From a bacterium (GTDB lineage Bacteria > Patescibacteriota > Gracilibacteria > Peribacterales > Peribacteraceae), in assembly GCA_029558515.1 (NCBI GenBank), contig JAKQEM010000028.1:1-40616 (forward strand): DNA of 40,616 nucleotides, in the 5' to 3' direction. Below, piece by piece: positions 3,991-38,699 of this stretch. The translations under genes were made by a program, and so were the position numbers. The notes below the pieces were generated by a model, which had not been told where the DNA came from, made no database searches, and saw only the letters and a program-made list of their open reading frames with translations. Position 1 is the first letter of the stretch. Each line of letters starts with the position of its first letter.

Positions 3991-4424
3991 GATTGCGTGC
4001 GGGAGAGGGCTAGAGGCTTGGGTTTCTGTGCGGCAAACGGATGCTCGCTCGCCGCAAACACGTGCAGACGCTTGAGAATCTCGCGGCGGAGACGGTTGTC
4101 GTCCAGCATTCCCTTGATGGCGTTCTCGATGGCGAACGTCGGATTCTTCTCCATCATCTGCGTGAGAGAGGTGTGTTTCATATTGCCCGGAAAACCCGTG
4201 TGGCGATGGTACACCTTGCGTATCCCCTTCTTGGGCGGCAGCGCGATCTTGCCGGCATTGATGATGACCACGCAGTCACCGCACAGCTGATGAGGCGAGA
4301 ACGTCGCCTTGTGCTTGCCGCGGAGAACCGTGGCCGCCTTCGCGGCGATCTTGCCGATGGACTGCCCCTCGGCGTCGATGAGGTGCCAGACTGGCGCCGA
4401 TGGGGGAAGGGTGGTGGTCTTCAT
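3987..4424 (-). CDS. rplM: 50S ribosomal protein L13 (uL13)
   Basis: 145 aa, normal length. Recognised by WHLIDAEGQSIGKIAAKAAT near the N-terminus, the segment HQLCGDCVVIINAGKIALPP and KVYHRHTGFPGNMK, all typical of L13, an early-assembling 23S domain II binder. Its start overlaps the end of rplQ by four bases and its stop overlaps rpsI by four bases, so rplQ-rplM-rpsI form one coupled unit. Confidence 0.97.
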   Translation of the reverse strand: MKTTTLPPSAPVWHLIDAEGQSIGKIAAKAATVLRGKHKATFSPHQLCGDCVVIINAGKIALPPKKGIRKVYHRHTGFPGNMKHTSLTQMMEKNPTFAIENAIKGMLDDNRLRREILKRLHVFAASEHPFAAQKPKPLALSRTQS

Positions 4425-4942
4425 GAGGGGGAAGAATCCGAGGGAACCGAAGGAACCGAAGGAACCGAGGATTCCGAGGATTGCTTCGCAGACTTCGTCG
4501 GTTTCTTCGGACTCTTCGGTTGCGTCGGTTGCTTCGTTGTTTTCTTTACCTTCTTCTCAGGTGCGGCTGCAGACGTCGCAACCACCGCATCGACGAGAGA
4601 GAAATCCACCACGGCCGCTCCGTCACCCTTGCGACTGCCCACGGCCGTGATGACCGAGTAGCCTCCCGTACGGGTGGCATACCGCGGGCGCAGCACTTCC
4701 ATCAGCTTGCGGCTGGCGTTCTTGTCAGTGACGATGCGGTTGATGGCCCGGATCGCAATGTGGGCTGGTTTCGTCTTCGCCGTCGTAATCAAGCCGTCCA
4801 CGATCGGGCGAATGACCAGTGCGCGCTTCTTGATCGTCCGAATGGATTCGTAGAGCAGCACGGACGTCACGAGATTCCGCTCCATCGATCGGGCGTAATC
4901 CGGTTTCTGGTTGAGCCGAGAACGATTGCTCTTGTGGCGCAT
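4421..4942 (-). CDS. rplQ: 50S ribosomal protein L17 (bL17) with repeat-derived C-terminal tail
   Basis: 173 aa against about 120 in most bacteria. Residues 1-115 are ordinary L17 (MRHKSNRSRLNQKPDYARSM at the start, then TSVLLYESIRTIKKRALVIR). From about residue 125 the protein becomes a low-complexity tail: a Lys/Pro part (TKQPTQPKSPKKPTK) followed by a Ser/Val/Pro part (SSVPSVPSVPSDSS). That tail is encoded by a palindromic DNA repeat (4437-4535) shared with rplX and rpsQ. The leader is pyrimidine-rich (ccctattttccccgctcc before ATG) and lacks a Shine-Dalgarno motif. Family identity is certain; a role for the tail is unknown and it may be neutral. Confidence 0.95.
   Translation of the reverse strand: MRHKSNRSRLNQKPDYARSMERNLVTSVLLYESIRTIKKRALVIRPIVDGLITTAKTKPAHIAIRAINRIVTDKNASRKLMEVLRPRYATRTGGYSVITAVGSRKGDGAAVVDFSLVDAVVATSAAAPEKKVKKTTKQPTQPKSPKKPTKSAKQSSESSVPSVPSVPSDSSPS
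4437..4535. repeat. In-frame imperfect inverted repeat in the 3' end of rplQ
   Basis: Left arm about 4437-4480, built from units like GGAACCGAAG and ATTCCGAGG; right arm about 4496-4535, built from TCGGTTTCTTCGG-like units. The reverse complement of one arm matches most of the other, with a spacer of about 15 bases, so the mRNA could form a long hairpin. The same design occurs in rplX and rpsQ. Confidence 0.75.
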
Positions 4943-4998
4943 GGAGCGGGGAAAATAGGGAGTGAGAGGATAGGGGGGAGGACGATGCGATGCAAGGA

Positions 4999-5994
4999 TT
5001 ATTCCTCTCCCTCTTCGCCCAGGGTCAAACCGCGGGTCGCGAGGGTCTCTTTCACTTCATCGAGGGCTTTCGCCCCGAATCCGCGGAAGTTGCTGAGCAT
5101 CGATTCGGTGCACTTGGTGAGCTGTTCGATGGAGCCGACGCCGGCGTTGATGAGCGAGTTTAACGTGCGGGGCGAGAGATTGAGAATCTCAATGGGCGTG
5201 TAGCTCTCCTTGGCGGGAGCAGCGGTCCCCGGCTCCTCCACGGCGACGGGGGCCGCACGGGAGAAATCGGCCATGAACTCCGGTTCCACCGTCTTCTGAT
5301 CGGACCCGAAATACTTGAAGTAGCTCTGCAGGAGTTGAGACGCAAATTGCATCGCCTCCTCGGCATTGAGCGAACCGTTGGTCTTCACCTCCATAACGAG
5401 TTTGTCGAGATCGGTGCGCTGGCCGACGCGCGCTGCTTCCACCTCGTAGCGAACGCGCTCCACGGGACTGAACACCGCATCGACGTACATGAGACCCGGC
5501 TCATGGTGCTGCTTATTCCGCTCGGCAGCCGACTCGTATCCCACGCCCTTCTCCACGGTGACATGCATGGACACGGAACCGCCCTTCTCCACGGTAAACA
5601 GCGGGAGATCCGGATTGAGTATGTCGATATCGGAACTCACTTTGAGATCGGATGCCTTCACCTGCTTGGGTCCCTTCACATCCAACGTGATGGTCTCAGC
5701 ATCCTTGCTGTGCTTGCGCAGTTTCAGCTGTTTGAGCGTGAGCATGATATCGACCACGGATTCCTTCACGCCCTTGATCGTCGTGTACTCATGCTGCACT
5801 CCGTCGATGCGCACCGATGTGACGGCGGCACCCGGGAGACTGCTGAGCAGAACGCGACGCAGCGCATTGCCCAACGTCATGCCGAATCCCGGCGGAAGCG
5901 GAGCGATGGTAAAGACAACGTGGGTGTCATCACCCTTGGTGCCCTTGGCCGAGCTGAAGACGGGCAAACCGATTTCTTCCTGAATAATGTGCAT
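4999..5994 (-). CDS. rpoA: DNA-directed RNA polymerase subunit alpha
   Basis: 331 aa, typical length. The N-terminal assembly domain shows PLPPGFGMTLGNALRRVLLS and PGAAVTSVRIDGVQHEYTTI, the dimerisation core that nucleates the beta and beta-prime subunits. After an Ala/Pro/Glu linker (about residues 245-260) the C-terminal domain shows LSPRTLNSLINAGVGSIEQL and FRGFGAKALDEVKETL, the helix-hairpin-helix module that contacts UP elements and activators. It lies between rpsD and rplQ as in the usual alpha operon. The leader is pyrimidine-rich (cctgtcacctccctccctcc). The protein ends in a short acidic tail (GEEGEE). Confidence 0.98.
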   Translation of the reverse strand: MHIIQEEIGLPVFSSAKGTKGDDTHVVFTIAPLPPGFGMTLGNALRRVLLSSLPGAAVTSVRIDGVQHEYTTIKGVKESVVDIMLTLKQLKLRKHSKDAETITLDVKGPKQVKASDLKVSSDIDILNPDLPLFTVEKGGSVSMHVTVEKGVGYESAAERNKQHHEPGLMYVDAVFSPVERVRYEVEAARVGQRTDLDKLVMEVKTNGSLNAEEAMQFASQLLQSYFKYFGSDQKTVEPEFMADFSRAAPVAVEEPGTAAPAKESYTPIEILNLSPRTLNSLINAGVGSIEQLTKCTESMLSNFRGFGAKALDEVKETLATRGLTLGEEGEE

Positions 5995-6046
5995 AGAAGG
6001 AGGGAGGGAGGTGACAGGAATGGGCGAACTGTCGCCCTGGATTATA

Positions 6047-6664
6047 TTAATTCCGAGAGTAGAATTCGACGATCTGGCGCATTTCGACGGCCTGTTCGGC
6101 GTCCTCAGGCGCAGGCAGAGCGGTCATCTCCGCCTTCAAGTTGGCGGCATCCACGGAGAGCCACTTGGGAGCGTGATACTTGGCGTTGCGCTCGCGAATC
6201 GCGGCAAACACCGGGGAATCCTTGGCGCGGGGTCGAATGGAGATCACCTGTCCGGGCTGCAGCCGATACGAAGGCGACGTGACCCGACGGCCGTCGACGA
6301 GGAAGAGACCGTGACCGGAAAACTGACGGGATTGCATGCGCGTCATCGCAAACCCCGCGCGATAGATGGCGTTGTCGAGACGCTGCTCCAACAGGCGCTT
6401 CATCGTGTCGCCCGTCCGGCCTTTGGCCTTGATGGACTCGTCGTAGAGACGGCGGAACTGCTTCTCCGAAAGACCGTACATGTCACGGGCTTTCTGCTTC
6501 TCCTTGAGCTGTTTTGCATACTCGGAATCGCGGCCCGAGCGCGTCTTGGGTCCTTTGCCGGGACCGTAGGGCTTGTGCTGCAGAATCTTGTCGTACTTGT
6601 CTGCCGCAAAGATATTGACGCCATGACGGCGGACGCGTCGTGCTTTGGGACCTGTGTACTTCAT
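6047..6664 (-). CDS. rpsD: 30S ribosomal protein S4 (uS4)
   Basis: 205 aa, full length. It begins MKYTGPKARRVRRHGVNIF and carries the S4 RNA-binding core (RLDNAIYRAGFAMTRMQSRQ, GHGLFLVDGRRVTSPSYRL), followed by a C-terminal segment with WLSVDAANLKAEM. The N-terminal zinc-ligand cysteines found in some S4 proteins are absent, so this is the zinc-independent form. S4 is a primary 16S binder. It lies between rpsK and rpoA as expected; 48 bases separate it from rpsK. Confidence 0.97.
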   Translation of the reverse strand: MKYTGPKARRVRRHGVNIFAADKYDKILQHKPYGPGKGPKTRSGRDSEYAKQLKEKQKARDMYGLSEKQFRRLYDESIKAKGRTGDTMKRLLEQRLDNAIYRAGFAMTRMQSRQFSGHGLFLVDGRRVTSPSYRLQPGQVISIRPRAKDSPVFAAIRERNAKYHAPKWLSVDAANLKAEMTALPAPEDAEQAVEMRQIVEFYSRN

Positions 6665-6712
6665 GAGGTGAGGAAGGTGAGAAAAGACAGGAAAGGCAGA
6701 AAGGTTGATCGA

Positions 6713-7117
6713 TTACACGCGGCGGCGACGGGGGGGGCGACAACCGCCGTGCGGAATGGGCGTGACATCGATGATCGCGTCGAGATTGAGACCAGCTCCC
6801 TGCAGACCGCGGATAGCCTGTTCCCGTCCGGGGCCGAGTCCTTTGATTTCCACTTGGACCGATTCGATACCGAAAGACAGCGCCTTCTGCACCGCATTCT
6901 CCGCTGCGATCTTGGCCGAGTACGGGGTGGATTTGCGTGTTCCGGCAAACCCTGATGATCCCGAACTCGCCCAGGCAAGCACCTTGCCCTCCGGGTCCGT
7001 GAGCGACACGATCGTATTGTTCTCACCGGCATGAATGCAGGCGCGCGCCTGTCTGACCGTACGCTTGACCTTCTTCTTGCGAATCTTGGTGACGGGAGTG
7101 GTGGAGGATTCTGCCAT
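6713..7117 (-). CDS. rpsK: 30S ribosomal protein S11 (uS11)
   Basis: 134 aa from ATG 7117; the frame is open 14 codons further upstream to 7159, but homology starts only at [20 protein letters not shown] and an ATG with the usual C/T-rich leader (ccatttaccccgcatcgttc) lies at 7117. Diagnostic segments are [26 protein letters not shown]-like [20 protein letters not shown] and [18 protein letters not shown]11 lines the mRNA exit channel with S7 and S18. Order rpsM-rpsK-rpsD is canonical. Confidence 0.96.
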
Positions 7118-7185
7118 GAACGATGCGGGGTAAATGGTTGTACAGTGGCAGAGACGCAACGTCGCGCATCTCTACGCATGAATGG

Positions 7186-7566
7186 TTAGGTCTTGGACAG
7201 GGTCGTGCGGCCGGAGAGACCCGTCTTCTTCTTGCCACGCTTGGTACGCGCGTTGCGGCGCGAGGTCTGTCCGCGAACTGGAAGTTTGCGGCGGTGACGC
7301 ATGCCGCGCCACGTACCGATATCCTGCAGACGCTTCACATCCAGCATGGTCTTGCGATTGAGTTCTCCCTCAGTCACCTCCCTCTCCACACGTGAGCGCA
7401 GGCGCGCCTCCTGCTCCTCCGTCAGCTTCTCCGCGGGAAGCATCGGATCGATCTTGAGTTCCGTGAGGATACGTCGTGCAAGCGGTCGTCCGATGCCTTT
7501 GATCGCGGTCAACGCGATGAGAATGTGTTTGGAGCCGGGGAGGTTGATACCCGAGATACGAACCAT
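7186..7566 (-). CDS. rpsM: 30S ribosomal protein S13 (uS13)
   Basis: 126 aa from ATG 7566, where VRISGINLPGSKHILIALTA, the standard S13 start, begins; the upstream open frame (to 7662) has no homology. Other family marks are IKGIGRPLARRILTELKI, GTWRGMRHRRKLPVRGQTSR and the basic C-terminus that in known ribosomes contacts the P-site tRNA and bridge B1. The leader is pyrimidine-rich (cctacaacctcgcact). Confidence 0.97.
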   Translation of the reverse strand: MVRISGINLPGSKHILIALTAIKGIGRPLARRILTELKIDPMLPAEKLTEEQEARLRSRVEREVTEGELNRKTMLDVKRLQDIGTWRGMRHRRKLPVRGQTSRRNARTKRGKKKTGLSGRTTLSKT

Positions 7567-7688
7567 AGTGCGAGGTTGTAGGTTGTAGGCAGTAGGGAGG
7601 AAGAAGGAGTGGGAATCGTAGGAAACAGATGGGGGAGAGGAGGAGCGGTGCAGATTGTACATCCTACCACCTGCTCACTACGCCCTCG

Positions 7689-7817
7689 TTACCCTTGACG
7701 CTGCTTATGCTTGGGCGTCTTGCACACGACACGCACGCGGCGCACGCCACGGCCGTCCCGCCGCAGGATGATGCGGCAATCTTTACACATGCGTTTGACG
7801 GAAGCACGAACTTTCAT
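7689..7817 (-). CDS. rpmJ: 50S ribosomal protein L36 (bL36), zinc-ribbon form
   Basis: 42 aa, read directly from the minus strand between infA and rps[21 protein letters not shown] followed by [20 protein letters not shown] and QG. The four zinc ligands C11, C14, C32 and H37 of the C+ type are all present. The length is slightly above the usual 37-38. Its ATG overlaps the infA stop by four bases. The order infA-rpmJ-rpsM is canonical. Confidence 0.95.
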
Positions 7818-8131
7818 GAACGATGTGGGGAAGAGCGGGGAGAAACGACATCAGTCGGCGCAGGAGCGTAGACGGGATTGCCTTCGTCATCGAACCGCTG
7901 ATCGGAACGGAAACGATACGTGATGCGGCCTTTCTGCAAATCGTACGGCGTCATTTCGATACGGACCCTGTCCCCGGGGAGGATGCGGACACGGTGGACA
8001 CGCATACGACCGGCTAGGTGGCAGAGCAGTACATGATCCTTGGCTTGCGGACTGAGTATTTTGACCTGGAACGTCGCATTCGGGAAGGTCTCTTCCACGA
8101 TGCCGATGAGCTCGATGACGTCCTTCGACAC
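7814..8131 (-). CDS. infA: Translation initiation factor IF-1 with C-terminal extension
   Basis: 105 aa against about 72 in most bacteria. The OB-fold core is clear: [54 protein letters not shown]. The start is a GTG (8131-8129): homology begins exactly there, and no ATG precedes it in frame. The leader (catttcccttttttgcgact) is pyrimidine-rich with no Shine-Dalgarno motif. Residues after about 76 form a hydrophilic tail ([20 protein letters not shown]) without recognisable homology. IF-1 occupies the A site during initiation. The gene overlaps rpmJ by four bases. Confidence 0.95.
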
Positions 8132-8240
8132 AGTCGCAAAAAAGGGAAATGGACCGCAAAAGCCGCCGCATCCTACAGATCGATTGGATCATCAGCAAGC
8201 TTATTCTTCGCAAACCACACAAGAACGGAAAAAATCAGTT

Positions 8241-8272
8241 GCATGAATAATATAATATTGTCTTATAACAAT
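8241..8272 (-). promoter_or_regulatory. Probable promoter region upstream of infA
   Basis: A markedly AT-rich patch between the map stop and infA, containing TTGTTATAAGACAATATTAT on the minus strand. It looks like a promoter for infA onward, but no pair of boxes with good spacing can be fixed. Confidence 0.35.
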
Positions 8273-9010
8273 TCAGGCGATGATGTCACATCCCTGCTCC
8301 GTCACGAGCAGCGTGTACTCACTATGGGAACAGAGCGACCCCTTTGCAGTGACCAACGTCCAGCCGTCGGAGAGTTGTCGCACGTCGTCATCCTCAAGTG
8401 ACACGATCGGCTCGATCGCCACGACCGTTCCCGCAGGGAACACCGGTCCGGTTCCGCGCCTTCCGTGATTGGGAATATCGGGATAGTGATGGACGCTCTC
8501 GCCCAGGCCGTGGCCGGTCAGAGGTTTGATCACCTTGCAGCTGCCCGCACGGACGACTTCCTCGATGGCATGGGAGACATCTCCCACGTGGATGCCTGCT
8601 TTCAGTACCGAAACGGCACGCTCCAGCGCCGCTTGCGCCACCTCCATCACATGCACGGCATCCTCACTGACGCGGCCGATCGGGACGGTGATGCACGCAT
8701 CGGTCACCAGACCCTCGAAGCGCACACCGCAATCCAGCGATACGATGTCCCCTTCACGCAATGCGCGCGCACCGGGAATGCCGTGGACGCATTCTTCATT
8801 CACCGATGTGCAGAGCGTTCCGGGAAAACCGCCGTACCCTTTGAACGCAGGTTCGCCGCCGTGCTCACGAATGAACGCTTCGGCCCATTGATCGAGTTCC
8901 ATCGTCCTCACGCCCGCGACCGCTTTCCCGCGCAACATTTCCAGACACGCGCGTAAAATCTTCCCGCCCTTTCGGAAGGAAGCGATCTGTGCCGGAGTGA
9001 AGGTTTGGAT
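8273..9010 (-). CDS. map: Methionine aminopeptidase type I, probable ATC start
   Basis: Removes the initiator methionine from nascent proteins. The metal ligands of the family are visible: D in SLDCGVRFEG, D in VTDACITVP, H in GHGLGESVHHYPD, E in VVAIEPIVS and E in HSEYTLLVTEQG. The first in-frame ATG (8938) would give 221 aa and remove the conserved N-terminal helix. Upstream of that ATG the same frame reads QTFTPAQIASFRKGGKILRA, which matches the family's TPEEIEKMREAGRI-type start. The frame is closed by a TAA shortly upstream, and between that stop and 8938 there is no ATG, GTG or TTG. An ATC at 9010 sits at the expected place (245 aa) after a C-rich leader. I therefore annotate ATC as the probable start; a frameshift or sequence error is the alternative. 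Confidence 0.85.
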   Translation of the reverse strand: MQTFTPAQIASFRKGGKILRACLEMLRGKAVAGVRTMELDQWAEAFIREHGGEPAFKGYGGFPGTLCTSVNEECVHGIPGARALREGDIVSLDCGVRFEGLVTDACITVPIGRVSEDAVHVMEVAQAALERAVSVLKAGIHVGDVSHAIEEVVRAGSCKVIKPLTGHGLGESVHHYPDIPNHGRRGTGPVFPAGTVVAIEPIVSLEDDDVRQLSDGWTLVTAKGSLCSHSEYTLLVTEQGCDIIA

Positions 9011-9051
9011 GGTGGGGATGGGGATTGGGGATTAGGGATTCGGACTTCGGG
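9011..9051 (-). repeat. AATCCC-type leader repeat before map
   Basis: On the minus strand this reads as tandem-like AATCCC units (CCTAATCCCCAATCCCCATC) preceded by CCCGAAGTCCG, directly abutting the proposed map start. Related copies precede rpsS, rplW and the ABC ATPase gene. Confidence 0.6.
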
Positions 9052-9132
9052 ATCGAAGGAGAATGCTGATCACGTTCATCCGGAATTTTCTTGATCATTT
9101 TGCATTTTACATGTCACATTTTGCATTCCTCT

Positions 9133-9696
9133 TTATTCAATCGCCAACAGAATCCTCTCAAACACCTCCTCCATCCCTCCTTCCCCGTCCACCTCGATCA
9201 CTTTTCCCTCCGCCTCAAATGCCCGGATGGCCGGCTCGGTCTTCTCGTGGAAGAGCGCCATGCGGCGGCGGATCGTTTCCTCATTCGCGTCATCCGCTCT
9301 CCCCTGTTCCCGCGCGCGTCCCAAAATCCGCTGCACCGCGTCTTCCTCGTTGATCGTGATGTGAATGCAGAGGTACTCGCGCTTCAGCGCGTCCATCATC
9401 GCCATGAACGCCTTGCGTTGATCCATGTCACGGGGGATGCCGTCAAACAGGATCCGCTTCCCGCCGCCGTTCAAATCTTCCACGAACCCGCGGACCACTT
9501 CCATGATGATTTCGAAGGGGACGAGATTCCCCTGATCGATGAAGGACTTCACCCGCTCCCCCAGAGGAGTCTTCGAAGCCGCGATCTTGCGCAGCTCCCC
9601 TCCCGCCTCGAAGATGACGTACTCCTTCTCCTCAGCCAATCGCTTGGCCTGCGTTCCTTTGCCGGATCCTTGAATGCCAAAGAGGACGAGATCCAT
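9133..9696 (-). CDS. adk: Adenylate kinase (short, LID-reduced type)
   Basis: 187 aa from ATG 9696; the open frame continues to 9765 but homology starts at MDLVLFGIQGSGKGTQ. Catalyses ATP + AMP to 2 ADP. The P-loop GIQGSGKGT is at residues 7-15, the NMP-binding part at about 30-60, and LFDGIPRDMDQ corresponds to the family's DGFPRxxxQ. The LID region is short (GRAREQGRADDANEETIRRR) with no zinc cysteines, the short-type enzyme. It lies between secY and map as in the classic spc operon, but here secY is separated from it by inserted genes, and adk seems to have its own -10 box at 9757-9762. Confidence 0.95.
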   Translation of the reverse strand: MDLVLFGIQGSGKGTQAKRLAEEKEYVIFEAGGELRKIAASKTPLGERVKSFIDQGNLVPFEIIMEVVRGFVEDLNGGGKRILFDGIPRDMDQRKAFMAMMDALKREYLCIHITINEEDAVQRILGRAREQGRADDANEETIRRRMALFHEKTEPAIRAFEAEGKVIEVDGEGGMEEVFERILLAIE

Positions 9697-9756
9697 AGCG
9701 CGAGAGAGGATAGCGGAGGAAGGAGGAAGTGCAAACGAAAGCATCGACCCTTTCCT

Positions 9757-9762
9757 ATTATA
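9757..9762 (-). promoter_or_regulatory. -10 box of an adk promoter
   Basis: TATAAT on the minus strand, 61 bases upstream of the adk ATG, in an AT-rich intergenic patch. No good -35 box is seen at 16-18 bases. It is divergent to, and nearly overlaps, the plus-strand promoter at 9774-9779. Confidence 0.45.
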
Positions 9763-9773
9763 CATAAAATGAG

Positions 9774-9779
9774 TATAAT
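9774..9779 (+). promoter_or_regulatory. -10 box of the promoter for the 206-aa gene
   Basis: Perfect TATAAT, 26 bases upstream of ATG 9806, with TG four bases before it. The -35 position (TTTCCT) is weak. The resulting leader would be under 25 bases. Confidence 0.5.
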
Positions 9780-9805
9780 ATTATTGTCATTTTCCCCACA
9801 TACAC

Positions 9806-10426
9806 ATGACCGAATCACAGCAAGACAAGCATGCCATTCCGGAACCGATCGCTACACTGGAAGGCTGGTCATGGGAGCAGTTGCCACTTGGCACCCTCGC
9901 ACGATCAAGCAGGGATGGAAAAGTGTACCGTAAGGAAAATGGATCTGAAGGGCGAGAGGTGTGGTGGGATGAAGAGAAACAAGTATGGCATGAAGGTATG
10001 CTCAATACTGCCAACCTCATTGATGGTCAGGGATTTGATGTGCTCGAACTGCCGAGCGAGCAAGAAGTACGGGGGCGATTGCTTCGCGACATAGAATGGG
10101 CGGCAAATGCATCTACCAACGAAGCGGTGGCAGAGAATCTAGACGCTGTCATTGGCATTGCACATCAGCAACAGTCGAAGGTTGCAGACATTCTCGGCCA
10201 CGCGCCGCATGCGGAACCGACGGAAACTGGAAGAAATTTCTTGCGCCGGATGCCATTTTCGGAAGTTCCAAATTTTGGAAAAATTCTGGTTGCTGGGCGA
10301 AGAGGAGTGTGGCGAAAAGAGGGCGACCGATTGACAGCCGATCTTTCTCAAGGGGCAAAGCTCATAAGCCCTTGGTATGAAACAACTATTGCCCCCGATA
10401 CGATCGTGACGTACATCGCGGTGTGA
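9806..10426 (+). CDS. Unknown protein inserted head-on inside the ribosomal cluster (206 aa)
   Basis: Not recognised. The gene is transcribed against the surrounding ribosomal cluster, between secY and adk, with its own TATAAT at 9774. The start ATG 9806 follows a C/A-rich leader (ttttccccacatacac) without a Shine-Dalgarno motif. The protein is soluble and acidic in its first half, with a Trp-rich stretch (REVWWDEEKQVWHEG) at about residues 50-65, a helical middle (about 85-130) and a beta-rich end (LISPWYETTIAPDTIVTYIA). No signal peptide, membrane segment or known motif. Its sequence is visibly more AT-rich than the neighbouring ribosomal genes, suggesting later insertion. Function unknown. 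Confidence 0.7.
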   Translation: MTESQQDKHAIPEPIATLEGWSWEQLPLGTLARSSRDGKVYRKENGSEGREVWWDEEKQVWHEGMLNTANLIDGQGFDVLELPSEQEVRGRLLRDIEWAANASTNEAVAENLDAVIGIAHQQQSKVADILGHAPHAEPTETGRNFLRRMPFSEVPNFGKILVAGRRGVWRKEGDRLTADLSQGAKLISPWYETTIAPDTIVTYIAV

Positions 10427-10568
10427 TGAGATTCTCGATTGCACCGGCAGCTGAGACTGCAAAGTGTGCCCATCTCACTGTGCTCAAGCATGTGGTTCAT
10501 CAATTGGATGAGTGCTGTTTTCCTGCTCATTTCTGAATTGCTGCAAGACCAAGTGGCATTTCTTCCAC

Positions 10569-10739
10569 TTAAGTAAGCAGTGCACGATAAAATTCAACGT
10601 CTTGACCGACCTTATAATGATCCAAATCTACTGCTAACTCAGCAGCTAGGAATCTCAGCTCCTCAAGAAGCTCACCTCTACCATGAGCCATCTCTTCTGC
10701 TTCGCCAAGAACTGTAGTTTGTCCTATTCCCATAATCAT
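10569..10739 (-). CDS. Small unknown ORF downstream of secY (56 aa)
   Basis: Begins 29 bases after the secY stop on the same strand, so it is probably cotranscribed with secY. The start is put at ATG 10739 (MIMGIGQTTVLGEAEEMAHG) because a pyrimidine-rich leader (tatttcttccccacca) like that of the ribosomal genes lies before it; an ATG two codons later is possible. The rest is helical and acidic (ELLEELRFLAAELAVDLDHY). More AT-rich than its neighbours. No family recognised. Coding status is moderately supported by position and leader only. Confidence 0.45.
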   Translation of the reverse strand: MIMGIGQTTVLGEAEEMAHGRGELLEELRFLAAELAVDLDHYKVGQDVEFYRALLT

Positions 10740-10768
10740 TGGTGGGGAAGAAATACAGCACGTATACA

Positions 10769-12046
10769 CTACACCAACTTATCGTAATCGTGCGCCAGCA
10801 TTTGCGCATTCACCTGGCGAATGAGTTCCATGACGACGCCGACGACGATGATGAGTCCTGAGCCGGAGATGAGGAGATCGTTGGCGTTCAGAGTGGAGAA
10901 TTTCGTGAAAATGAGCGGGATGATGGCGACGAGTCCGAGGAAGGAGCCGCCCCACAGGTTCAGACGGTTACTCGTCTTTTCGAGCATGGCCGCCGTCTGC
11001 TGGCCGGGACGGAGCCCCGGGATGAATCCGCCGCGCTTCTGGATGGTTTCCGCCACTTCCTTCGGCTTGAAGGTGACGGAGACGTAGAAGTACGTGAAGG
11101 CGAGCACGAGGAGGAAGTAGAGAATGATGTACGCCCAACCGGGATTCTGCGCGTTGAAGTACGTGTTGATGACGGAGACGAGACCCTGGAAGCGGGGAGC
11201 CGTCTGGAGGAACTGCGCGAGGATGGCCGGCATGGTAATGAGGGAGACTGCGAAAATGATCGGAATCATGCCCGCTTGATTGATGCGGATGGGGATGCCG
11301 CCCTGCACGCCGCGACCCGCACCTTGGTTTGCGTACGTGATGGGAATGAGACGGTGCGCATCGGTGAAGAGCACGACGGCGATGAGGGTGGCGAGCGCCA
11401 CCATGGCAAAGACGACGAACGCTCCCTGCTGACTCTGCCCTGTGAGGATCATGGCACTGACCTGTGCGGGGATATTGGAAACGATGCCTGCGAAGATGAG
11501 CAGCGAGATGCCGTTGCCAATCCCCTTCTCCGTGATGAGTTCTCCAAGCCACATCAGGAATACCGAACCGGCCGTGACGAAGAACATGGGAAGGAGGACG
11601 TTCGGAAACGCGGTCTCCACGAGACTGATGCCGCCGCGCGAGAGGAGGATGAGGAATCCGTAGCTCTGCACGAACGCCAACGGCAACGAGAGCCAGCGCG
11701 TGTAACGATTGATCTGCTGCTGCCCCTGCTGTCCTTCCTTGCTGATGGCTTCCAGCTTGGGAAAGATCACGGTGCACAGCTGCATGATGATGGACGCGTT
11801 GATGTACGGCGAAAGCCCCAGCATCACGATGGAGAAGTTATCCACGGCGCCGCCGGTGAGCGCGGCGAAGACGCCGATGAGTCCGCCCGAGGTACGACTG
11901 TTGAGGAACTGCGAGAGTGCGAAGGGATCGGTGCCGGGCACGGGCAAATGCGCAATGACGCGGTAGAGGATCAGAAGGACGATCGTCATCACGATGCGGC
12001 GGCGCAGGTCCCGGGTGTGCCAGATCTGTCGGATGTAGGAGAACAT
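10769..12046 (-). CDS. secY: Preprotein translocase subunit SecY
   Basis: 425 aa, normal length, ten predicted membrane helices. Starts at MFSYIRQIWHTRDLRRR (ATG 12046); the frame is open further upstream to 12070 without homology. Marks of the family: RVIAHLPVPGTD, the plug/TM2 region GGAVDNFSIVMLGLSPYINA, TEKGIGNGISLLIFAGIVSN, and the cytoplasmic loop FKPKEVAETIQKRGGFIPG that binds the ribosome and SecA. SecY forms the protein-conducting channel with SecE and SecG, encoded elsewhere. It follows rplO by 13 bases as usual, but is followed by a small ORF and a head-on gene instead of adk. Confidence 0.97.
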   Translation of the reverse strand: MFSYIRQIWHTRDLRRRIVMTIVLLILYRVIAHLPVPGTDPFALSQFLNSRTSGGLIGVFAALTGGAVDNFSIVMLGLSPYINASIIMQLCTVIFPKLEAISKEGQQGQQQINRYTRWLSLPLAFVQSYGFLILLSRGGISLVETAFPNVLLPMFFVTAGSVFLMWLGELITEKGIGNGISLLIFAGIVSNIPAQVSAMILTGQSQQGAFVVFAMVALATLIAVVLFTDAHRLIPITYANQGAGRGVQGGIPIRINQAGMIPIIFAVSLITMPAILAQFLQTAPRFQGLVSVINTYFNAQNPGWAYIILYFLLVLAFTYFYVSVTFKPKEVAETIQKRGGFIPGLRPGQQTAAMLEKTSNRLNLWGGSFLGLVAIIPLIFTKFSTLNANDLLISGSGLIIVVGVVMELIRQVNAQMLAHDYDKLV

Positions 12047-12059
12047 GGATGGGAGAATA

Positions 12060-12500
12060 CTACCGCACAATCGTCAGCGTACCACCTGCATCCGCGATGG
12101 CCTTCCTGGCGGACTTGGATGCGGCGTGCGCTTCGATGCTGATTTTCTTGGTCATGGTACCGGTGCCCAAAATCTTCACTCTGCTGTTCCTGCGCACCAG
12201 CTTTCGATCGATGAGATCGGCCAGGACGTAGGTACCTGCATCCAAACGCTGCTCCAGCACCGCAAGATTGAGCGCCTCATAGACGATCTTGCGCGGAGGA
12301 GTAAACCCGCCGAGCTTGGGTTGACGGCGAATGAGCGGCGTCTGTCCTCCTTCAAATCCGAAATGATGACCTTTGCCGGTACGCGACTGCTGTCCTTTGG
12401 TGCCGCGTCCCGCGGTCGTACCGCCCTTGCCGCTGTTGCCGCGAGCAAGACGCTTTGACTTGGGACGGGAGCCCTTGGAGGGTTGAAGAGTGTGCAACAT
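12060..12500 (-). CDS. rplO: 50S ribosomal protein L15 (uL15)
   Basis: 146 aa from ATG 12500 (MLHTLQPSKGSRPKSKRLAR); an open frame of 11 more codons upstream has no homology. Typical Gly-rich N-terminal extension (GNSGKGGTTAGRGTKGQQSR, then HHFGFEGGQTPLIRRQPKLG) that threads into 23S rRNA, then the globular domain ending AIADAGGTLTIVR. Transcribed between an inserted DJ-1-like gene and secY. The gene that normally precedes rplO, rpmD (uL30), is absent. Confidence 0.97.
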   Translation of the reverse strand: MLHTLQPSKGSRPKSKRLARGNSGKGGTTAGRGTKGQQSRTGKGHHFGFEGGQTPLIRRQPKLGGFTPPRKIVYEALNLAVLEQRLDAGTYVLADLIDRKLVRRNSRVKILGTGTMTKKISIEAHAASKSARKAIADAGGTLTIVR

Positions 12501-12566
12501 ACGAAAGTACGGGGAATCATACCCGAAACGCAATCGGGCCGTTATGGTACTGGCAGCTTGGCGGGT

Positions 12567-13103
12567 TCACAAGTGCTTTTTGCCATCCATTTTCGCCAGA
12601 CGTTTCCCGAATGCCCCCGCCGCAGCCGGGCCGTTTCCGGTGAGGAGCAGACCGTCTTCCACCACGGGCGCATCGACGAAAATCGCTCCTGCACGCTCGA
12701 GCTCCCGGATTTGCGTACCGTAACCGTCATCCCACACCGTCGCCTGTTTGCCCTGCAATACCCCTGCGGCGGCCAGAATCAGGGGTGCGATACAGATGGC
12801 GCCGAGAGGTGTGCCCGAAGCAGCGGCCTCACGCGCGATTCGCAGCGCCTCCTCATGCGTCACCAATGCCTCCGCCCCCGGCCCGCCGATGAATGCGATC
12901 CGCTCATACGCATCGATGCGTACGTCCTTCAGAGCAATCGTTGCCACTTCCGATCCGCCGAATTTTCCCGTACACGTCCCCGCTTCGCTGCTTGCCAGCA
13001 CCACATCGAATCCTGCGGCGATCAAACCCTTACGCGTGCCCTCCAACTCGCGATCCTGATAGTTGTTTTGTGCGATGATGAGGAGAGCGGAGGACATAGG
13101 CAT
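12567..13103 (-). CDS. DJ-1/PfpI-family protein at the rpmD position
   Basis: 178 aa (or 176 from ATG 13097). Class I glutamine-amidotransferase-like fold: ALLIIAQNNYQDRELEGTRK at the start, AFIGGPGAEAL at 70-80, and the nucleophile elbow GAICIAPLILAAAG with the candidate catalytic Cys104, followed by the usual QGKQATVWDDG. The residue after the Cys is Ile, not the His of PfpI proteases, so a protease role is not supported; relatives act as glyoxalases, deglycases or chaperones, and substrate cannot be told from sequence. It lies in the same direction between rpsE and rplO, exactly where rpmD (uL30) sits in most bacteria, and is probably cotranscribed with ribosomal genes. Confidence 0.9.
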   Translation of the reverse strand: MPMSSALLIIAQNNYQDRELEGTRKGLIAAGFDVVLASSEAGTCTGKFGGSEVATIALKDVRIDAYERIAFIGGPGAEALVTHEEALRIAREAAASGTPLGAICIAPLILAAAGVLQGKQATVWDDGYGTQIRELERAGAIFVDAPVVEDGLLLTGNGPAAAGAFGKRLAKMDGKKHL

Positions 13104-13173
13104 GCATGTAGGCTAAGTATGTCCTTTCTTGTCGACCGGACAAGTGAAGAACCGCCTTTTCTCACCTTCCTCC

Positions 13174-13803
13174 CTATTCCGCCCTCTTCTCCTTCAACGT
13201 TCCGTCTTCCGCGACCTGCTCCTTGGATACCTCGATGATCTGCGGTGCGGACACATCGGCTGCTTCCTCCCCCGCTTCCGCCACCGGGCTCTCCTCCACA
13301 ACCACTCCACCCTTGACGGGCTTGAGTTTGGCCAAAGCCATGAACGTTGCCTGCGCATTGACGAGTTTGTTGCCCGTGCCAAAACGCTTGCTGAGGACGT
13401 TACGCACGCCGGCGTGATCGAAGATGACGCGCAACGCCCCCCCGGCGATGATGCCGGTTCCCTCGGATGCGGGCATGATGCGCAGTTTCGCCGCCTTGAA
13501 CTTCACATCGACATCATGCGGAATGGTTCCTTTGACGAGCGGCACGCGGATCATGGCTCTCTTGGCAGCCTTGGTCGCTTTCTGCACGGCAGCCTGGACT
13601 TCATTGGCCTTGCCCGTGCCCAGTCCCACCCTGCCTTTCCTGTCCCCCGCCACCACGATGGCGCGGAAGCGCATGCGGCGTCCACCCTTCACCACGCGCG
13701 TGACGCGATCGACCGAGAGCGTCGTCTCGGTAAACTCGGATGGTTCGCGCTTTGAGCGACCGGAGCGATCAGACTTGCGATCAGGACGGGAGGATTTGGC
13801 CAT
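13174..13803 (-). CDS. rpsE: 30S ribosomal protein S5 (uS5) with C-terminal extension
   Basis: 209 aa against about 165. The core is clear: RVTRVVKGGRRMRFRAIVVA, GDRKGRVGLGTGKANEVQAA and SEGTGIIAGGALRVIFDHAG. Residues after about 165 form an acidic Val/Glu tail (ESPVAEAGEEAADVSAP then a Lys/Glu end) unlike the Lys/Pro/Ser tails of L17 and L24, with no palindromic repeat in its DNA. S5 acts in decoding fidelity and the mRNA entry channel. The leader here is AT-rich rather than C-rich. Confidence 0.96.
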   Translation of the reverse strand: MAKSSRPDRKSDRSGRSKREPSEFTETTLSVDRVTRVVKGGRRMRFRAIVVAGDRKGRVGLGTGKANEVQAAVQKATKAAKRAMIRVPLVKGTIPHDVDVKFKAAKLRIMPASEGTGIIAGGALRVIFDHAGVRNVLSKRFGTGNKLVNAQATFMALAKLKPVKGGVVVEESPVAEAGEEAADVSAPQIIEVSKEQVAEDGTLKEKRAE

Positions 13804-13832
13804 GAAAATTCAAATGGAAATAAATGGAAGAA

Positions 13833-14132
13833 TTACGCTGAAAGTATGGATTGTACATCGGGAATCGGAACCACAAAAACTTGGTGACCTTCTCCCAAAC
13901 AAGTAAAATATTTATCATAAATACGATCTACTGTTAATCGCAGCGTTAAGTCAGTTTCTGCATGTGGAGTGTTATTAACGGAAGCTAAATTATGCGGTGT
14001 CTGTCCGCCATTTAGATTTTCAACTGCAAGAAGAACTGCAATGGGACAATCCATGCTTCTTCCAACAAACCCCGCTAGATTAGTGTCATTTATTATTTCA
14101 CCTATGCCGCTTGAAGGTAAAAGAGAAGCCAT
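13833..14132 (-). CDS. Unknown AT-rich small ORF between rplR and rpsE (99 aa)
   Basis: Starts four bases after the rplR stop and ends 29 bases before the rpsE start, so it is almost certainly in the ribosomal transcript. The frame stays open upstream through rplR DNA, but the ATG at 14132 (MASLLPSSGIGEIINDTNLA) is the first start after that gene. The protein contains CPIAVLLAVENLNGGQTPHN and a beta-rich end (GHQVFVVPIPDVQSIL). Base composition is clearly more AT-rich than either neighbour, which suggests recent insertion. No family recognised; not L30, whose conserved N-terminal strand is absent. Confidence 0.55.
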   Translation of the reverse strand: MASLLPSSGIGEIINDTNLAGFVGRSMDCPIAVLLAVENLNGGQTPHNLASVNNTPHAETDLTLRLTVDRIYDKYFTCLGEGHQVFVVPIPDVQSILSA

Positions 14133-14136
14133 AAAA

Positions 14137-14481
14137 TCAGAAGGTGAGTCCGCCTTCGCGGGCGGCGTCGGCGAGCGCCCGGACACGGCCGTGATACTTG
14201 TAGGCATTGCGATCGAAGACGATGGTCGTGATGCCGGCATCTTTGGCTTTCTTCGCGATGAGCGCGCCGACTTTCTTCGCGCCTTCCACCGTCGCCTTCG
14301 CCTTCACTTCCTTGGTGGAAGCACTGCAGAGCGTGCGTCGCGCGACGTCATCGATGATCTGTGCGCTCATGGAAAGCAACGAACGATGCACCGTGAGACG
14401 CGGACGATCGGCCGTGCCGCGTACTTTGGCGCGGATGCGGCGCTTGCGCGCGAGCCGGAGGTTGGTCTTGATCCTGGACAT
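14137..14481 (-). CDS. rplR: 50S ribosomal protein L18 (uL18)
   Basis: 114 aa from ATG 14481 ([20 protein letters not shown]). Family segments: [20 protein letters not shown], the 5S-rRNA-binding strand region, and the C-terminal [21 protein letters not shown]18 binds 5S rRNA with L5. The leader is pyrimidine-rich (cccctttcttcgcaccc). The order rplF-rplR is standard; an inserted ORF follows. Confidence 0.97.
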
Positions 14482-14513
14482 GGGTGCGAAGAAAGGGGGG
14501 AAATGCGATGGGA

Positions 14514-15071
14514 TCACGCAGCGGTCTTGCCGGCCGCCTTGCCCGCCTTGCGACGGACGACTTCATCGATGTAGCGAATGCCTTTGCCTTTGTAGGGCTC
14601 GGGTGGGCGGAGTTCGCGGATCTGCGCGGTCACCAGTCCGACCAGCTGCTTGTCGATCCCGCGGATCATCAGAATGTTCTTGTTGCGCTCATCCTGGGCG
14701 ATCTCGATGCCGACCGGAATGGCGAAATCAATGGGATGACTGAATCCCAAATGAAGCTGCAGCAAGCGAGGTCCCTTGAGAGTCACCTTGTAGCCCACTC
14801 CGATGATCTCGATCTTCTTCTCGTACCCGTCGGAGACACCCTTGACCATGTTGGCGAGGAGCGCTCGCGTGAGGCCATGACGGGCCCGCGCATCTTTTGA
14901 ATCGTTCTTGCGGGACACTTTGACCGATGCATCTTCGACGGCGACCGACACCTCCGGAAGGAGCGCGTACATGAGCTCTCCTCTGGCTCCTTTCACCGTC
15001 ACCGTGCCGGAGGCGACCGAGACGGTCACACCGGAGGGAAGGGCCACTGCTTTACTACCGATTCGAGACAT
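14514..15071 (-). CDS. rplF: 50S ribosomal protein L6 (uL6)
   Basis: 185 aa, normal length, starting [20 protein letters not shown]. Two repeated domains; the second contains the signature [20 protein letters not shown] near the C-terminus. L6 stabilises helix 97 beside the sarcin-ricin loop. It ends with an Ala/Lys-rich tail (GKAAGKTAA). The start lies five bases from the rpsH stop. Confidence 0.97.
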
Positions 15072-15076
15072 GAGTG

Positions 15077-15463
15077 CTAGGAGATGGTACAGAGAACTTC
15101 ACCGCCGATCTTGCGCTTGCGCGCCGAAGCATCCGTGAGCAAACCTTCGCTGGTGGTCAGAATGGCGATTCCGTAGTCGCGCAGCACGGGACGCAGGTCC
15201 GCAGACGAAGAGTAGACGCGACGACCGGGCCGACTGACGCGCCGAAGCCTCAGTTTCTTTTCCGGATGGAACGTGATTTTGAGTGACAGTTTGGGCTCGG
15301 TGCCCGTCACCTCCACCGCCTGCAACCACTCTTCCTTCACCAGAAGCTCGCAGAGTTCCAGCTTGATCTTCGACCAGGGCGCGATGCAGCTCTCCTTGCG
15401 GACAGCCTGCGCATTGCGCATGCGAGTCAGGAGATCGCCGATGGGGTCTGTAACGAATGTCAT
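15077..15463 (-). CDS. rpsH: 30S ribosomal protein S8 (uS8)
   Basis: 128 aa from ATG 15463 (MTFVTDPIGDLLTRMRNAQA); the open frame continues far upstream through rpsN DNA without homology. The C-terminal half shows RVSRPGRRVYSSSADLRPVL and GIAILTTSEGLLTDASARK, the S8 core that binds 16S helix 21 and, in other bacteria, represses the spc operon. The leader is strongly pyrimidine-rich (acaccttcctcctctc). Confidence 0.97.
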   Translation of the reverse strand: MTFVTDPIGDLLTRMRNAQAVRKESCIAPWSKIKLELCELLVKEEWLQAVEVTGTEPKLSLKITFHPEKKLRLRRVSRPGRRVYSSSADLRPVLRDYGIAILTTSEGLLTDASARKRKIGGEVLCTIS

Positions 15464-15501
15464 GAGAGGAGGAAGGTGTAGAGACGCGCTATAGCGCTTC
15501 T

Positions 15502-15726
15502 TTACCAGGAAGATTTGGTGACGCCCGGAATTTCGCCGTTGCCGGCAAGTTCGCGGAAACAGATGCGACAGACACCGAAGAACCGAATGAACCCGTGCCT
15601 GCGTCCGCAGAGACTGCAACGATTGTAGACGCGTGTGGGGAATGCCGGTTTGACCCCGGCTGCCTTCGCCGCGAGGAATGCATCCAGTGCGTTTCGGTGC
15701 CGATTGAGGAGAGCTTTGCGAGCCAT
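15502..15726 (-). CDS. rpsN: 30S ribosomal protein S14 (uS14), short zinc form
   Basis: 74 aa from ATG 15726 ([20 protein letters not shown]). The four zinc ligands C37, C40, C53 and C56 lie in [14 protein letters not shown] and [10 protein letters not shown], defining the zinc-dependent short type. It is somewhat longer than the common 61-residue form owing to an N-terminal insert ([12 protein letters not shown]). It ends GVTKSSW as typical. S14 is needed late in 30S head assembly. The leader is ctgccctccctcctctcc. Confidence 0.96.
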
Positions 15727-15797
15727 GGAGAGGAGGGAGGGCAGATCTGCGATCTGCGGGGAAACGGGGGGGATTGTCGGGAAGGATGACACGAAGG

Positions 15798-16370
15798 TCA
15801 AGCAGTTTTCCGCGTCTCTTTGCGTTCCTGACGGAAGGGGAGACCGATTTTCTTCAGGAGGAGCCGAGCGGAATCATCATCCTTCGCAGTCGTGGTGATC
15901 TGAATCTGCAGACCGAAGATCTTTTGGACGTCATCCGCCGGCAACTCCGGAAAGACGGTCTGATCACGGAGTCCGATGGCGTAATTACCCTTTCCGTCCA
16001 GTTTGACGGAGAGCCCGCGGAAATCGCGGATGCGCGGGAGGACGAAGCTGACCAGTCGGTCGAGGAATTCCTCCATCCGACGGCCCCGCAGGGTGACCAT
16101 GGCGCCAACGACCTGCCCCTCACGGATCTTGAAATTGGAGATCGCCTTCCGGCTCCTGCGCAGCACCGGCTTCTGTCCCGTGATCTTGGAGAGCGAGTTG
16201 GTCACGAGTTCGACCATTTCCTTCCCTTCCATGTGCGTGCGGTTGATGCCGACGTTCACGATCACCTTTTCGATGCGGGGGAGAGCGTGGACGTTGGTCT
16301 CCTTGAGCTCAACTTTGAGCTCTTGGAGAATCGGTCCGCGCAGCCGATCATGGAGCGTTGCGTATGTCAT
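15798..16370 (-). CDS. rplE: 50S ribosomal protein L5 (uL5)
   Basis: 190 aa, slightly longer than average. Marks: [60 protein letters not shown] and [20 protein letters not shown]5 binds 5S rRNA and forms the B1b bridge. ATG 16370 lies two bases from the rplX stop at 16373, so coupling is likely. Confidence 0.97.
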
Positions 16371-16372
16371 GG

Positions 16373-16921
16373 TTAACCGCCTTGGGAACGATGAGCGGAT
16401 GGCATGGATTTGGCGTCAGAGGTACCGGCGGCGAGCGATCCTCCCTCCTCCGCAGTCCCCTTTCCCTTGTCACCGCGCCTCCAGAACGGTTGCTTGTGCG
16501 GTCGTGCAACCGAGGATCCCGAGGAAACCGATGATGCTCCTTTGGCACTCGTCGGTTGCTTCGGACTCTTGGGTTGCGTCGTTTGCTTTGTCTTCTTGGT
16601 TACCGCCACGCCTTTGATCTCCTCGCCGCTCCGCTTGGCGATACGCGTCTTCTTCCCCGTCTTCACATCGATCTTGTACCCGACGCGCGTGGGCTTCTTC
16701 GTCTTGGGATCGAGAATCATCACGTTGGATGCGTCCAAGCTCGCCTCGTAGGAGATGCGTTGACCGGCCTGCTGCACCGTCTTTTTGATGTGGCGGATGC
16801 GCATGTTGGCTCCCTCCACCACCAAACGGTTTTTGCCGGGGAACACACGCAGGACCTTGCCCTGCTTGCCTTTGTCCTTGCCGCTGATGATGACGACGGT
16901 GTCGCCGGTGCGGATCTTCAT
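16373..16921 (-). CDS. rplX: 50S ribosomal protein L24 (uL24) with long C-terminal tail
   Basis: 182 aa against about 103. The KOW-containing core ([60 protein letters not shown]) ends near residue 107. The rest is a tail: a Lys/Pro part ([16 protein letters not shown]), a Ser/Val part ([11 protein letters not shown]), then a Gly/Ser-rich end ([20 protein letters not shown]). The first two parts are encoded by a palindromic DNA repeat at 16506-16590 that is also in rplQ and rpsQ. The ATG overlaps the rplN stop by four bases. L24 starts 50S assembly near the tunnel exit, so the tail could project near emerging peptides; this is inference. Confidence 0.94.
16506..16590. repeat. In-frame imperfect inverted repeat in the tail of rplX
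   Basis: Left arm about 16506-16534 (GCAACCGAGGATCCCGAGGA and on), right arm about 16549-16590 (CTCGTCGGTTGCTTCGGACT and on). The reverse complement of the right arm (CAACCCAAGAGTCCGAAGCA) aligns well with the left arm by eye. Confidence 0.7.
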
Positions 16922-17286
16922 AGGACTTCGGGGGCTTGGGAGATAATCTTCTGGTACCCCTTGGCGCGCAGTTCGCGAGCGACGGGGCCAAAGACACGGG
17001 TGCCTTTGGGCAAACCGTCCTTCTGAATGATGACGCAGGCATTGTCGTCGAAACGAATGCTGGAACCGTCCTTGCGATGGGTGGCGCTCACCGTCCGGAC
17101 GATCACTGCGTGCTCGACCGCCTTCTTCTTCACCGTGCCGCGTGGCGCAGCTTCCTTGATGGAAACGATCACCACGTCGCCGATCCGTGCGTACCGTCGG
17201 CGCGTCCCGCCAAGCACACGGATGCACATCGCCTCTTTGGCGCCCGTATTATCTGCCACAGTGAGATAGGTTTGCTGCTGGATCAT
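16918..17286 (-). CDS. rplN: 50S ribosomal protein L14 (uL14)
   Basis: 122 aa, exact family length, starting [20 protein letters not shown]. Further marks: [32 protein letters not shown] and [21 protein letters not shown]14 forms bridges B5 and B8 and is the RsfS binding site. It overlaps rpsQ and rplX by four bases each, so rpsQ-rplN-rplX are coupled. Confidence 0.98.
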
Positions 17287-17690
17287 TTGAAGGAGGGAAC
17301 CGAGGATTCCGAGGTAACCGAGGCAACCGGAGATCCCGAAGAGAGCTTTTCCATCCTCGTCGGTTTCATCGGTTTCTTCGGTTCCGTCGATTGCTTCTCT
17401 CGATGCATCGCCTCCTCCACACCCTTGCCTTCCGTCATTTCACTCACGCGCGGGACGCGCTTGATAACCTCGATGATGCGGAAGTGCTTTTTTTTGCTGA
17501 GAGGACGACACTCCCGGATGCTCACTTCATCACCCACCCGGATGTCCTCGATCCCTTTGGAATCGACGAGGAACTTCTTGCTCATGCGGAAGCTCTTCTT
17601 GTAGAGCTTGTGCATGACGGAACGGTGCACCGTGACGGTGACCGTATCCTGCATTGATGCCGATGTGATGATACCGAGCTTGGTGAGCAT
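17283..17690 (-). CDS. rpsQ: 30S ribosomal protein S17 (uS17) with repeat-derived C-terminal tail
   Basis: 135 aa against about 85. The OB-fold core: [20 protein letters not shown], then [20 protein letters not shown] and [20 protein letters not shown]. After about residue 88 a tail follows with the same two-part composition as L17: [18 protein letters not shown], then [18 protein letters not shown]. It is encoded by a palindromic repeat at 17294-17395. The start shares one base with the rpmC stop (TGATG). S17 is an early 16S binder. Confidence 0.95.
17294..17395. repeat. In-frame imperfect inverted repeat in the tail of rpsQ
   Basis: Left arm about 17294-17341 with GGAACCGAGGATTCCGAGGT and AACCGAGGCAACCGG units; right arm about 17356-17395 with CTCGTCGGTTTCATCGGTTT and TTCGGTTCCGTCG. 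Third copy of the element seen in rplQ and rplX. Confidence 0.7.
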
Positions 17691-21194: not shown

Positions 21195-21232
21195 GGATTA
21201 GGAATGAGGAGTTGGGGATTCGGACTTCGGGT
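21195..21232 (-). repeat. AATCC-type repeat at the rplD/rplW junction
   Basis: Minus strand CCCGAAGTCCGAATCCCCAA then CTCCTCATTCCTAATCC, ending at the rplW ATG. It shares CCCGAAGTCCGAATCCC with the copy before map. Here the repeat encodes the last residues of L4 (PKSESPTPHS). Confidence 0.6.
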
Positions 21233-38553: not shown

Positions 38554-38639
38554 TCTGCGAAAGTGTACCGAAATTCGCCTCGTTCTGCCGTAGACATTTT
38601 TAAATTTCCCACCCAAACGAAACCACGCGGAAAGATACG

Positions 38640-38668
38640 AAAAAAGCACCTCTTGGGAGAAGAAGTGC
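38640..38668 (-). terminator. Rho-independent terminator of the rRNA operon
   Basis: On the minus strand GCACTTCTT (38668-38660), loop CTCCC, AAGAGGTGC (38654-38646), then six T: a 9-bp stem with one non-Watson-Crick pair. It lies about 31 bases after the 5S gene and about 87 bases before the giant surface-protein gene. Confidence 0.85.
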
Positions 38669-38699
38669 GTCGTTTCCGTCTGTGATGCAAAGTACACTG

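Follow-up and report, generated by a model that had tools for sequence, protein, structure and literature searches.

Why do essential ribosomal-protein genes of a bacterium contain palindromes within their reading frames? We addressed this question for rplQ, rplX and rpsQ in a DNA stretch of 40,616 nt (hereafter "the window"), the ribosomal-protein region on contig C23 of a 1.31 Mb genome in 49 contigs that belongs to the family Peribacteraceae. An earlier note on this DNA had described the palindromes and proposed a mobile or expanding hairpin element. Our analyses indicate that they are probably gene-less copies, similar to miniature inverted-repeat transposable elements (MITEs), of a dispersed element, the full form of which carries a gene for the 23S rRNA intervening sequence protein (IVP) between inverted arrays of 9-nt units.

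Inverted arrays in rplQ, rplX and rpsQ

On the mRNA strand, a purine array (unit NGAAACCGA; R arm) precedes a pyrimidine array (unit TCGGTTTCN; Y arm) in each of the three genes. The two arrays are inverted with respect to each other and have a unit length of 9 nt. The arrays extend over 4429-4537 (rplQ), 16510-16582 (rplX) and 17291-17399 (rpsQ), a few bases off the positions given earlier. The reading frame stays open to the stop codon in all three genes, and the encoded peptides are PKSPKKP-like and then SSVPSVP-like. The earlier note was thus right that each gene has two inverted arms that are phased alike, and all arrays are read in one frame. Its description of the arms as near reverse complements holds for the inversion, but the arms are imperfect and made of tandem units. 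Similarly, the location at the 3′ end applies to rplQ and rpsQ, but the rplX element is followed by ~45 further codons. All three named carriers were verified, but single arms in rplD and lysS had been overlooked (Table 1).

The array pattern has 21 matches in the window, compared with 0.25 expected, and none of 100 shuffles reached this number. The complementary pattern has 25 matches, compared with 0.77 expected. Across the genome of the window, the array pattern has 55 matches and the reversed control pattern has none. Arms that score no better than shuffled sequence, which had been named as a possible refutation, were therefore not what we found.

To compare DNA structure and protein sequence, the protein was held constant, the codons were resampled according to the genome codon usage, and the fold energies of 300 recodings per tail were determined. 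The mRNAs of the native tails have fold energies of −45.0 (rplQ), −51.2 (rpsQ) and −31.1 kcal/mol (rplX). None of the 300 recodings was at least as stable for rplQ or for rpsQ, while for the weaker rplX element 13 of 300 were. Twelve in-frame tails from eight genomes were compared in this way, and in nine of them no more than one synonymous version out of 300 had as stable a fold. The inverted structure therefore resides in the DNA.

Table 1. Positions of the array-bearing genes and of the array arms in the window
Feature	Position	Strand	Remarks
rplQ (L17) gene	4421..4942	-	palindrome in frame at the 3′ end
rplQ element, R arm	4498..4537	-	reads QPTQPKSPKKPTK
rplQ element, Y arm	4429..4477	-	reads SSESSVPSVPSVPS
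rplX (L24) gene	16373..16921	-	in-frame palindrome within the C-terminal tail
rplX element, R arm	16543..16582	-	weakest of the three elements
rplX element, Y arm	16510..16531	-	reads SSVSSGSS
rpsQ (S17) gene	17283..17690	-	stop overlaps the rplN start, so that the element lies directly upstream of rplN
rpsQ element, R arm	17360..17399	-	
rpsQ element, Y arm	17291..17339	-	
rplD (L4) C-terminal tail, lone R arm	21314..21353	-	PTSPTQPTQPKK; no Y arm; same array family
lysS, lone R arm	25245..25284	+	in frame, reads PREPRGPMQPMMPK

In the rplD tail, a further array follows (KTKTAKMTKTTKTTK; window 21198-21310), built of 9-nt units that resemble AAGACTACA and differ from the unit of the adjoining CCGA arm.

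Dispersed copies in Peribacteraceae

With one mismatch allowed, the array pattern was found in the genome of the window and in 16 of 35 relatives of the same family, and in none of 23 genomes from other families of the same class. Of 380 genomes from the phylum, six have matches to a stricter version of the pattern, and these six belong to the Peribacteraceae. The numbers of matches in four congeners are 91 (genome G013), 108, 2 and 0, and it is probable that array copies were gained and lost lineage by lineage within the family.

G013 and G021 are copy-rich genomes, in which most arrays form true hairpins of 70-130 bp that are located between genes and present in many copies. In the loci examined, the R arm precedes the Y arm in 39 hairpins, and a single one has the opposite order. 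The intergenic hairpins are present in tandem, divergent and convergent gene pairs. Because arrays read open on both strands and confound in-house gene calls, the key flanks were verified by Pfam or tblastn. Both sides were Pfam-confirmed for three divergent pairs (Mur ligase / DivIC, Band_7 / RpiB, and ProRS / VIT1), and one side for the divergent pair of L25 and an open reading frame (ORF) without a Pfam match.

Some copies are closely related to each other. The copies L058 and L070 of one genome share 89% identity over 127 nt, including a loop of 55 nt, and the homology ends at GGGA...TCCC. L068 and L069 share 92% identity over 115 nt in inverted orientation. The G013 copies have a common directional consensus (consistency 2467, compared with a random maximum of 1700); in pairwise comparisons both orientations occur, with no tie to GC skew. 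Judged from the shared loops and the sharp edges, the hairpins look like dispersed, mobile-type DNA. In L069 (positions 1592-1685, G021), 11 nearly identical TCGGTTTCT units make up the Y arm, while the R arm opposite is short, a sign of recent expansion on one side.

Presence and absence could be compared at orthologous positions. In G013, the compared segment of the map-infA spacer measures 313 nt and contains a hairpin (+145 nt), while it is 169 nt long in G077 and 167 nt in G067, two congeners that lack the hairpin and have a conserved block downstream. The congeners are ~77-89% identical in protein, and the edges are blurred at the base level. Between the same congeners, rplQ contains a hairpin in G077 and none in G013 or G067. 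The comparison of orthologues suggested earlier thus revealed presence and absence, but not base-exact insertion edges, as the congeners are too diverged.

A tblastn-anchored comparison of 40 operon stretches was used for the copies in ribosomal-protein tails. In-frame hairpins or arms were found in the tails of rplQ (G023, G077), rplV (G013, G016, G017, G018, G021, G023, G067, G072), rplD (G013, G016, G063, G072), rplE (G034) and rpsQ (G023, G063). The window contributed the rplX copy, so that six genes are affected in all (L4, L5, L17, L22, L24 and S17). In ribosomal-protein genes, the Y arms often stop 2-20 nt ahead of the stop codon. The recurrence in six genes, the copies with shared loops, the additional 145 nt between map and infA, and the uneven counts within one genus support the earlier proposal of a mobile or expanding hairpin element in frame in essential genes of a bacterium of the Candidate Phyla Radiation (CPR). 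In the operons of the congeners G013, G077 and G067 (L205, L221, L222), rpsE and rplO are separated by ~3.2-3.6 kb of extra genes.

IVP genes between inverted arrays

At locus L340 of G013, two R arms, an ORF of 120 amino acids and a Y arm follow each other. The ORF matches 23S_rRNA_IVP (PF05635) with 118.6 bits as well as TIGR02436 ("four helix bundle protein"), and 2GSC is its sole solved relative. The locus is flanked by a glycosyltransferase-like ORF and a seryl-tRNA-synthetase-like ORF, and does not lie in a 23S rRNA helix. As measured on the arms, it is ~95% identical to the gene-less hairpin L089 of the same genome (40 of 42 and 34 of 36 positions). PF05635 genes between complementary ends were also seen at L372 and other loci; the copies in the window carry no gene.

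PF05635 is present in 50 of 57 genomes of the family. Inverted repeats with z>4 lie beside the IVP gene at 46 of 50 family loci, with one locus counted twice (L362 and L377). In a phylum-wide sample, such repeats lie at 23 of 30 IVP loci. Of 200 control genes, five have them. The arms that flank IVP genes consist of iterated units, mostly of 7 nt (AGCTTTG, AGTGATT and TTAGGAT types), some of 8 nt, and in one group of 9 nt. The unit length tracks the protein clade: all 13 loci with 9-nt arms have an IVP of the VW(Q/K/R)EA type, compared with none of the 32 others (Fisher 1.4e-11). The branch that separates this IVP group from the rest has a support of 97/99 and is present in 98% of the bootstrap trees. 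In G003, G013, G016, G018, G072, G077 and G079, the arms that flank IVP genes are of the CCGA type and resemble those of the window. When ribosomal-protein tails were compared with resident IVP arms, the own genome gave the best match in only three of the seven comparisons for which own IVP arms were available.

Further repeats were observed in the genome of the window. The rpsK-rpsD spacer contains, just before the rpsD start (window 6650-6720), a pyrimidine array CTTTCTGCCTTTCCTGTCTTTTCTCACC of a third sequence class; its similarity to the 9-nt arms of the IVP locus L380 of the same genome is at chance level (26, compared with at most 25 in shuffles). Another palindrome, CCCGCCCGATCCGAACGGTCGGATCGTTCGGGCGGG, is present in two copies and no more, which are identical (L034 1900-1970 on contig C31, and L047 1986-2052 on contig C49) and both joined to TCGG arrays. 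It reads SPARSERSDRSGG in one ORF, and in the other it lies within the start or signal-peptide region of a 465-aa ORF (IGFFGIPRPIRTVG). The window also contains very large ORFs of a cysteine-rich surface type at 28-2892 and 33112-38697, and a long GD repeat is part of the one at 33112-38697. Giant ORFs of a similar kind have reportedly been found in Ca. Peribacter riflensis.

Weighing the explanations

The explanation that we consider probable, a dispersed element with gene-less copies, can be outlined as follows. The complete element would consist of a gene for the four-helix-bundle IVP between two inverted 9-nt arrays. Gene-less derivatives would persist between genes or, where the operon offers no spacer, in frame within disordered protein segments. 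As the unit equals three codons and was seen in hydrophilic frames (PKK or EET, followed by SVS), C-terminal tails of ribosomal proteins tolerate copies; those in the tails would be tolerated and nothing more. The IVP, or a process that needs it, would recognise the arrays and move gene-bearing and gene-less copies alike, and we infer that insertion would proceed via a hairpin or a single strand. Single copies may have a regulatory role.

Several points weigh against this explanation. Most other arrays in the genome of the window are single arms within coding regions, which slippage alone could yield. The G013 loops are alike in length, but not in sequence. Among the congeners compared, which are too diverged, neither a base-exact pair of filled and empty sites nor a target duplication was found. 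In the genome of the window and in G021, both with many CCGA-type arrays, none of the IVP genes examined is a close match, so that past or in-trans mobilisation would need to be assumed there. The 9-nt arms and the IVP clade represent one evolutionary event, and their association is therefore no proof of recognition. We know of no nuclease or recombinase motif in the IVP.

Growth of tandem 9-nt repeats by slippage, with inversion through template switching and without any mobile element, would fit the variable unit numbers (e.g. the 11 Y units of L069), the many single-arm arrays in coding linkers and the duplicated R arm of L340. However, the copies have common loops and sharp ends, the G013 copies share the directional consensus described above, and IVP genes are located between arms, which makes this alternative unlikely. 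We regard it as still less likely that the hairpins are structured mRNA 3′ ends, i.e. terminators, stabilisers or processing sites of operon segments that were selected at gene ends. The stems are long and stable, hairpins in tandem pairs lie near the upstream stop (median near 18 nt), and many ribosomal-protein copies end shortly before the stop codon, as expected for such a role. In contrast, copies also lie between Pfam-verified divergent genes and inside long operons that require read-through, and among the well-oriented G013 copies in tandem pairs, six have the same and five the opposite orientation to transcription. Complementarity at variable positions is 0.511 for arms of the same copy and 0.552 for arms of different copies (standard deviation 0.018), and 31 of 153 spacer positions are paired, below the expected fraction of 0.35. 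In addition, L067 has a separate canonical terminator that adjoins the hairpin. The stabilisation of mRNA 3′ ends, which the earlier note had also considered, is thus not upheld as a general role, given the copies between divergent genes, the occurrence in either orientation and the lack of compensatory pairing. An intrinsic terminator in the narrow sense, i.e. a hairpin with a U-tract at transcript ends only, is excluded by the copies inside operon genes and between divergent genes. A terminator-like scan of the window had no match at the three elements, and Rfam had no family above the gathering score there, with only sub-threshold matches of the miRNA type.

Protein-level selection for a K/P-rich and then S-rich tail would turn the palindrome into a by-product of the amino acids. 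It could build on the L17 proteins, as nearly all family members have a K/S-rich C-terminal extension of comparable length without an array. However, the hairpin is lost upon synonymous recoding, the same arrays occur between genes and in other frames (e.g. IGFFG), and the tails differ within a genus, so that we consider this alternative highly improbable. L24 orthologues (L157-L186) have a conserved family-wide C-terminal motif, PFWK(K/R)..GFG ... HRS.GRGS, downstream of a variable linker. Taken together, the array-free L17 tails and the L24 motif indicate that the element landed in pre-existing extensions, and that the arrays did not create the K/S-rich tails. The earlier statement that all three proteins gain a tail is therefore correct in that the arrays encode tails, but similar extensions exist without them; tail conservation in the absence of a DNA palindrome, which had been named as counter-evidence, was thus found in part. 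Least probable of all are repetitive extragenic palindromic (REP)-type elements moved by a Y1 transposase (REP-associated tyrosine transposase, RAYT). The elements are palindromic, mostly intergenic, directional and imperfectly paired, but G013, with its 91 array matches and a completeness of 99%, has no match to PF01797. Y1 transposase domains were observed within ORFs of ~1000 residues, i.e. not of IS200 size, in G000 (C8:9514-9849), G021, G031, G002, G010 and G063.

The dispersed element was also compared with known systems. Rickettsia palindromic elements (RPEs) have 105-146 bp and are found between genes and in frame within conserved protein genes (PMC2229807). The Peribacteraceae element is similar in palindromy, size and its intergenic and in-frame placement, a likeness of form and placement alone. 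In contrast to RPEs, its arms are tandem 9-nt units, IVP-bearing forms exist, it recurs in ribosomal-protein tails, and the unit pattern is confined to Peribacteraceae among the genomes searched. The intervening sequences (IVSs) of 23S rRNA have the S23/IVP gene enclosed by complementary ends, which pair into a long stem, and their mobility has been hypothesised, but is unproven (PMC4990558). The plan, an IVP gene flanked by complementary ends, is the same; however, many copies of the Peribacteraceae elements are dispersed at sites other than rRNA, their arms are iterations of 7- or 9-nt units, and gene-less derivatives occur in protein genes. REP and REPIN sequences with RAYT transposases are short, imperfect, directional palindromes that are amplified in some genomes and in part lie inside genes (PMC3733652). 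The Peribacteraceae element shares this form, but differs by the iterated units and by its abundance in G013 without a Y1 transposase. Bacterial MITEs (Correia/NEMIS, ERIC, RUP) have 100-200 bp and inverted ends, and some of them have an open reading frame that is fused to a gene (PMC2229807); size, inverted ends and in-frame copies are shared, but the terminal repeats of the Peribacteraceae element are arrays, and no classical transposase was identified. PARCELs are coding palindromic repeats that are thought to be mobile (PMC2996958). They are amphipathic tandem repeats of 25 residues in surface proteins, whereas the Peribacteraceae unit encodes three residues and forms hydrophilic tails. 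In the open-access literature, we found no report of these arrays, of in-frame palindromes in ribosomal-protein genes, or of iterated inverted arms that flank IVP genes.

Four features are new with respect to IVSs: the arms are iterated, their unit length matches the protein clade, copies are dispersed beyond rRNA, and derivatives lie in frame within essential genes. In this candidate-phylum lineage, the genome of which is reduced, essential ribosomal-protein genes repeatedly tolerate a palindromic element in their reading frames. The tie of this element to the IVP, the role of which has been open since the discovery of 23S rRNA intervening sequences, would give this protein a testable role. 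Somewhat more speculatively, the IVP, described chiefly from 23S rRNA intervening sequences, could be part of a widespread, undescribed class of mobile elements, the inverted arms of which are iterated. Each IVP lineage would then read an arm unit of its own (7, 8 or 9 nt), with perhaps a single unit for each subunit of its ring, and would act in trans on hairpins that lack the gene, moving them into ribosomal-protein genes among other sites. The correspondence of IVP clade and arm unit leads directly to a prediction of binding. For the phylogeny of these uncultured bacteria, the tails represent fast-changing DNA in L4, L5, L22, L24 and S17, proteins that serve as markers.

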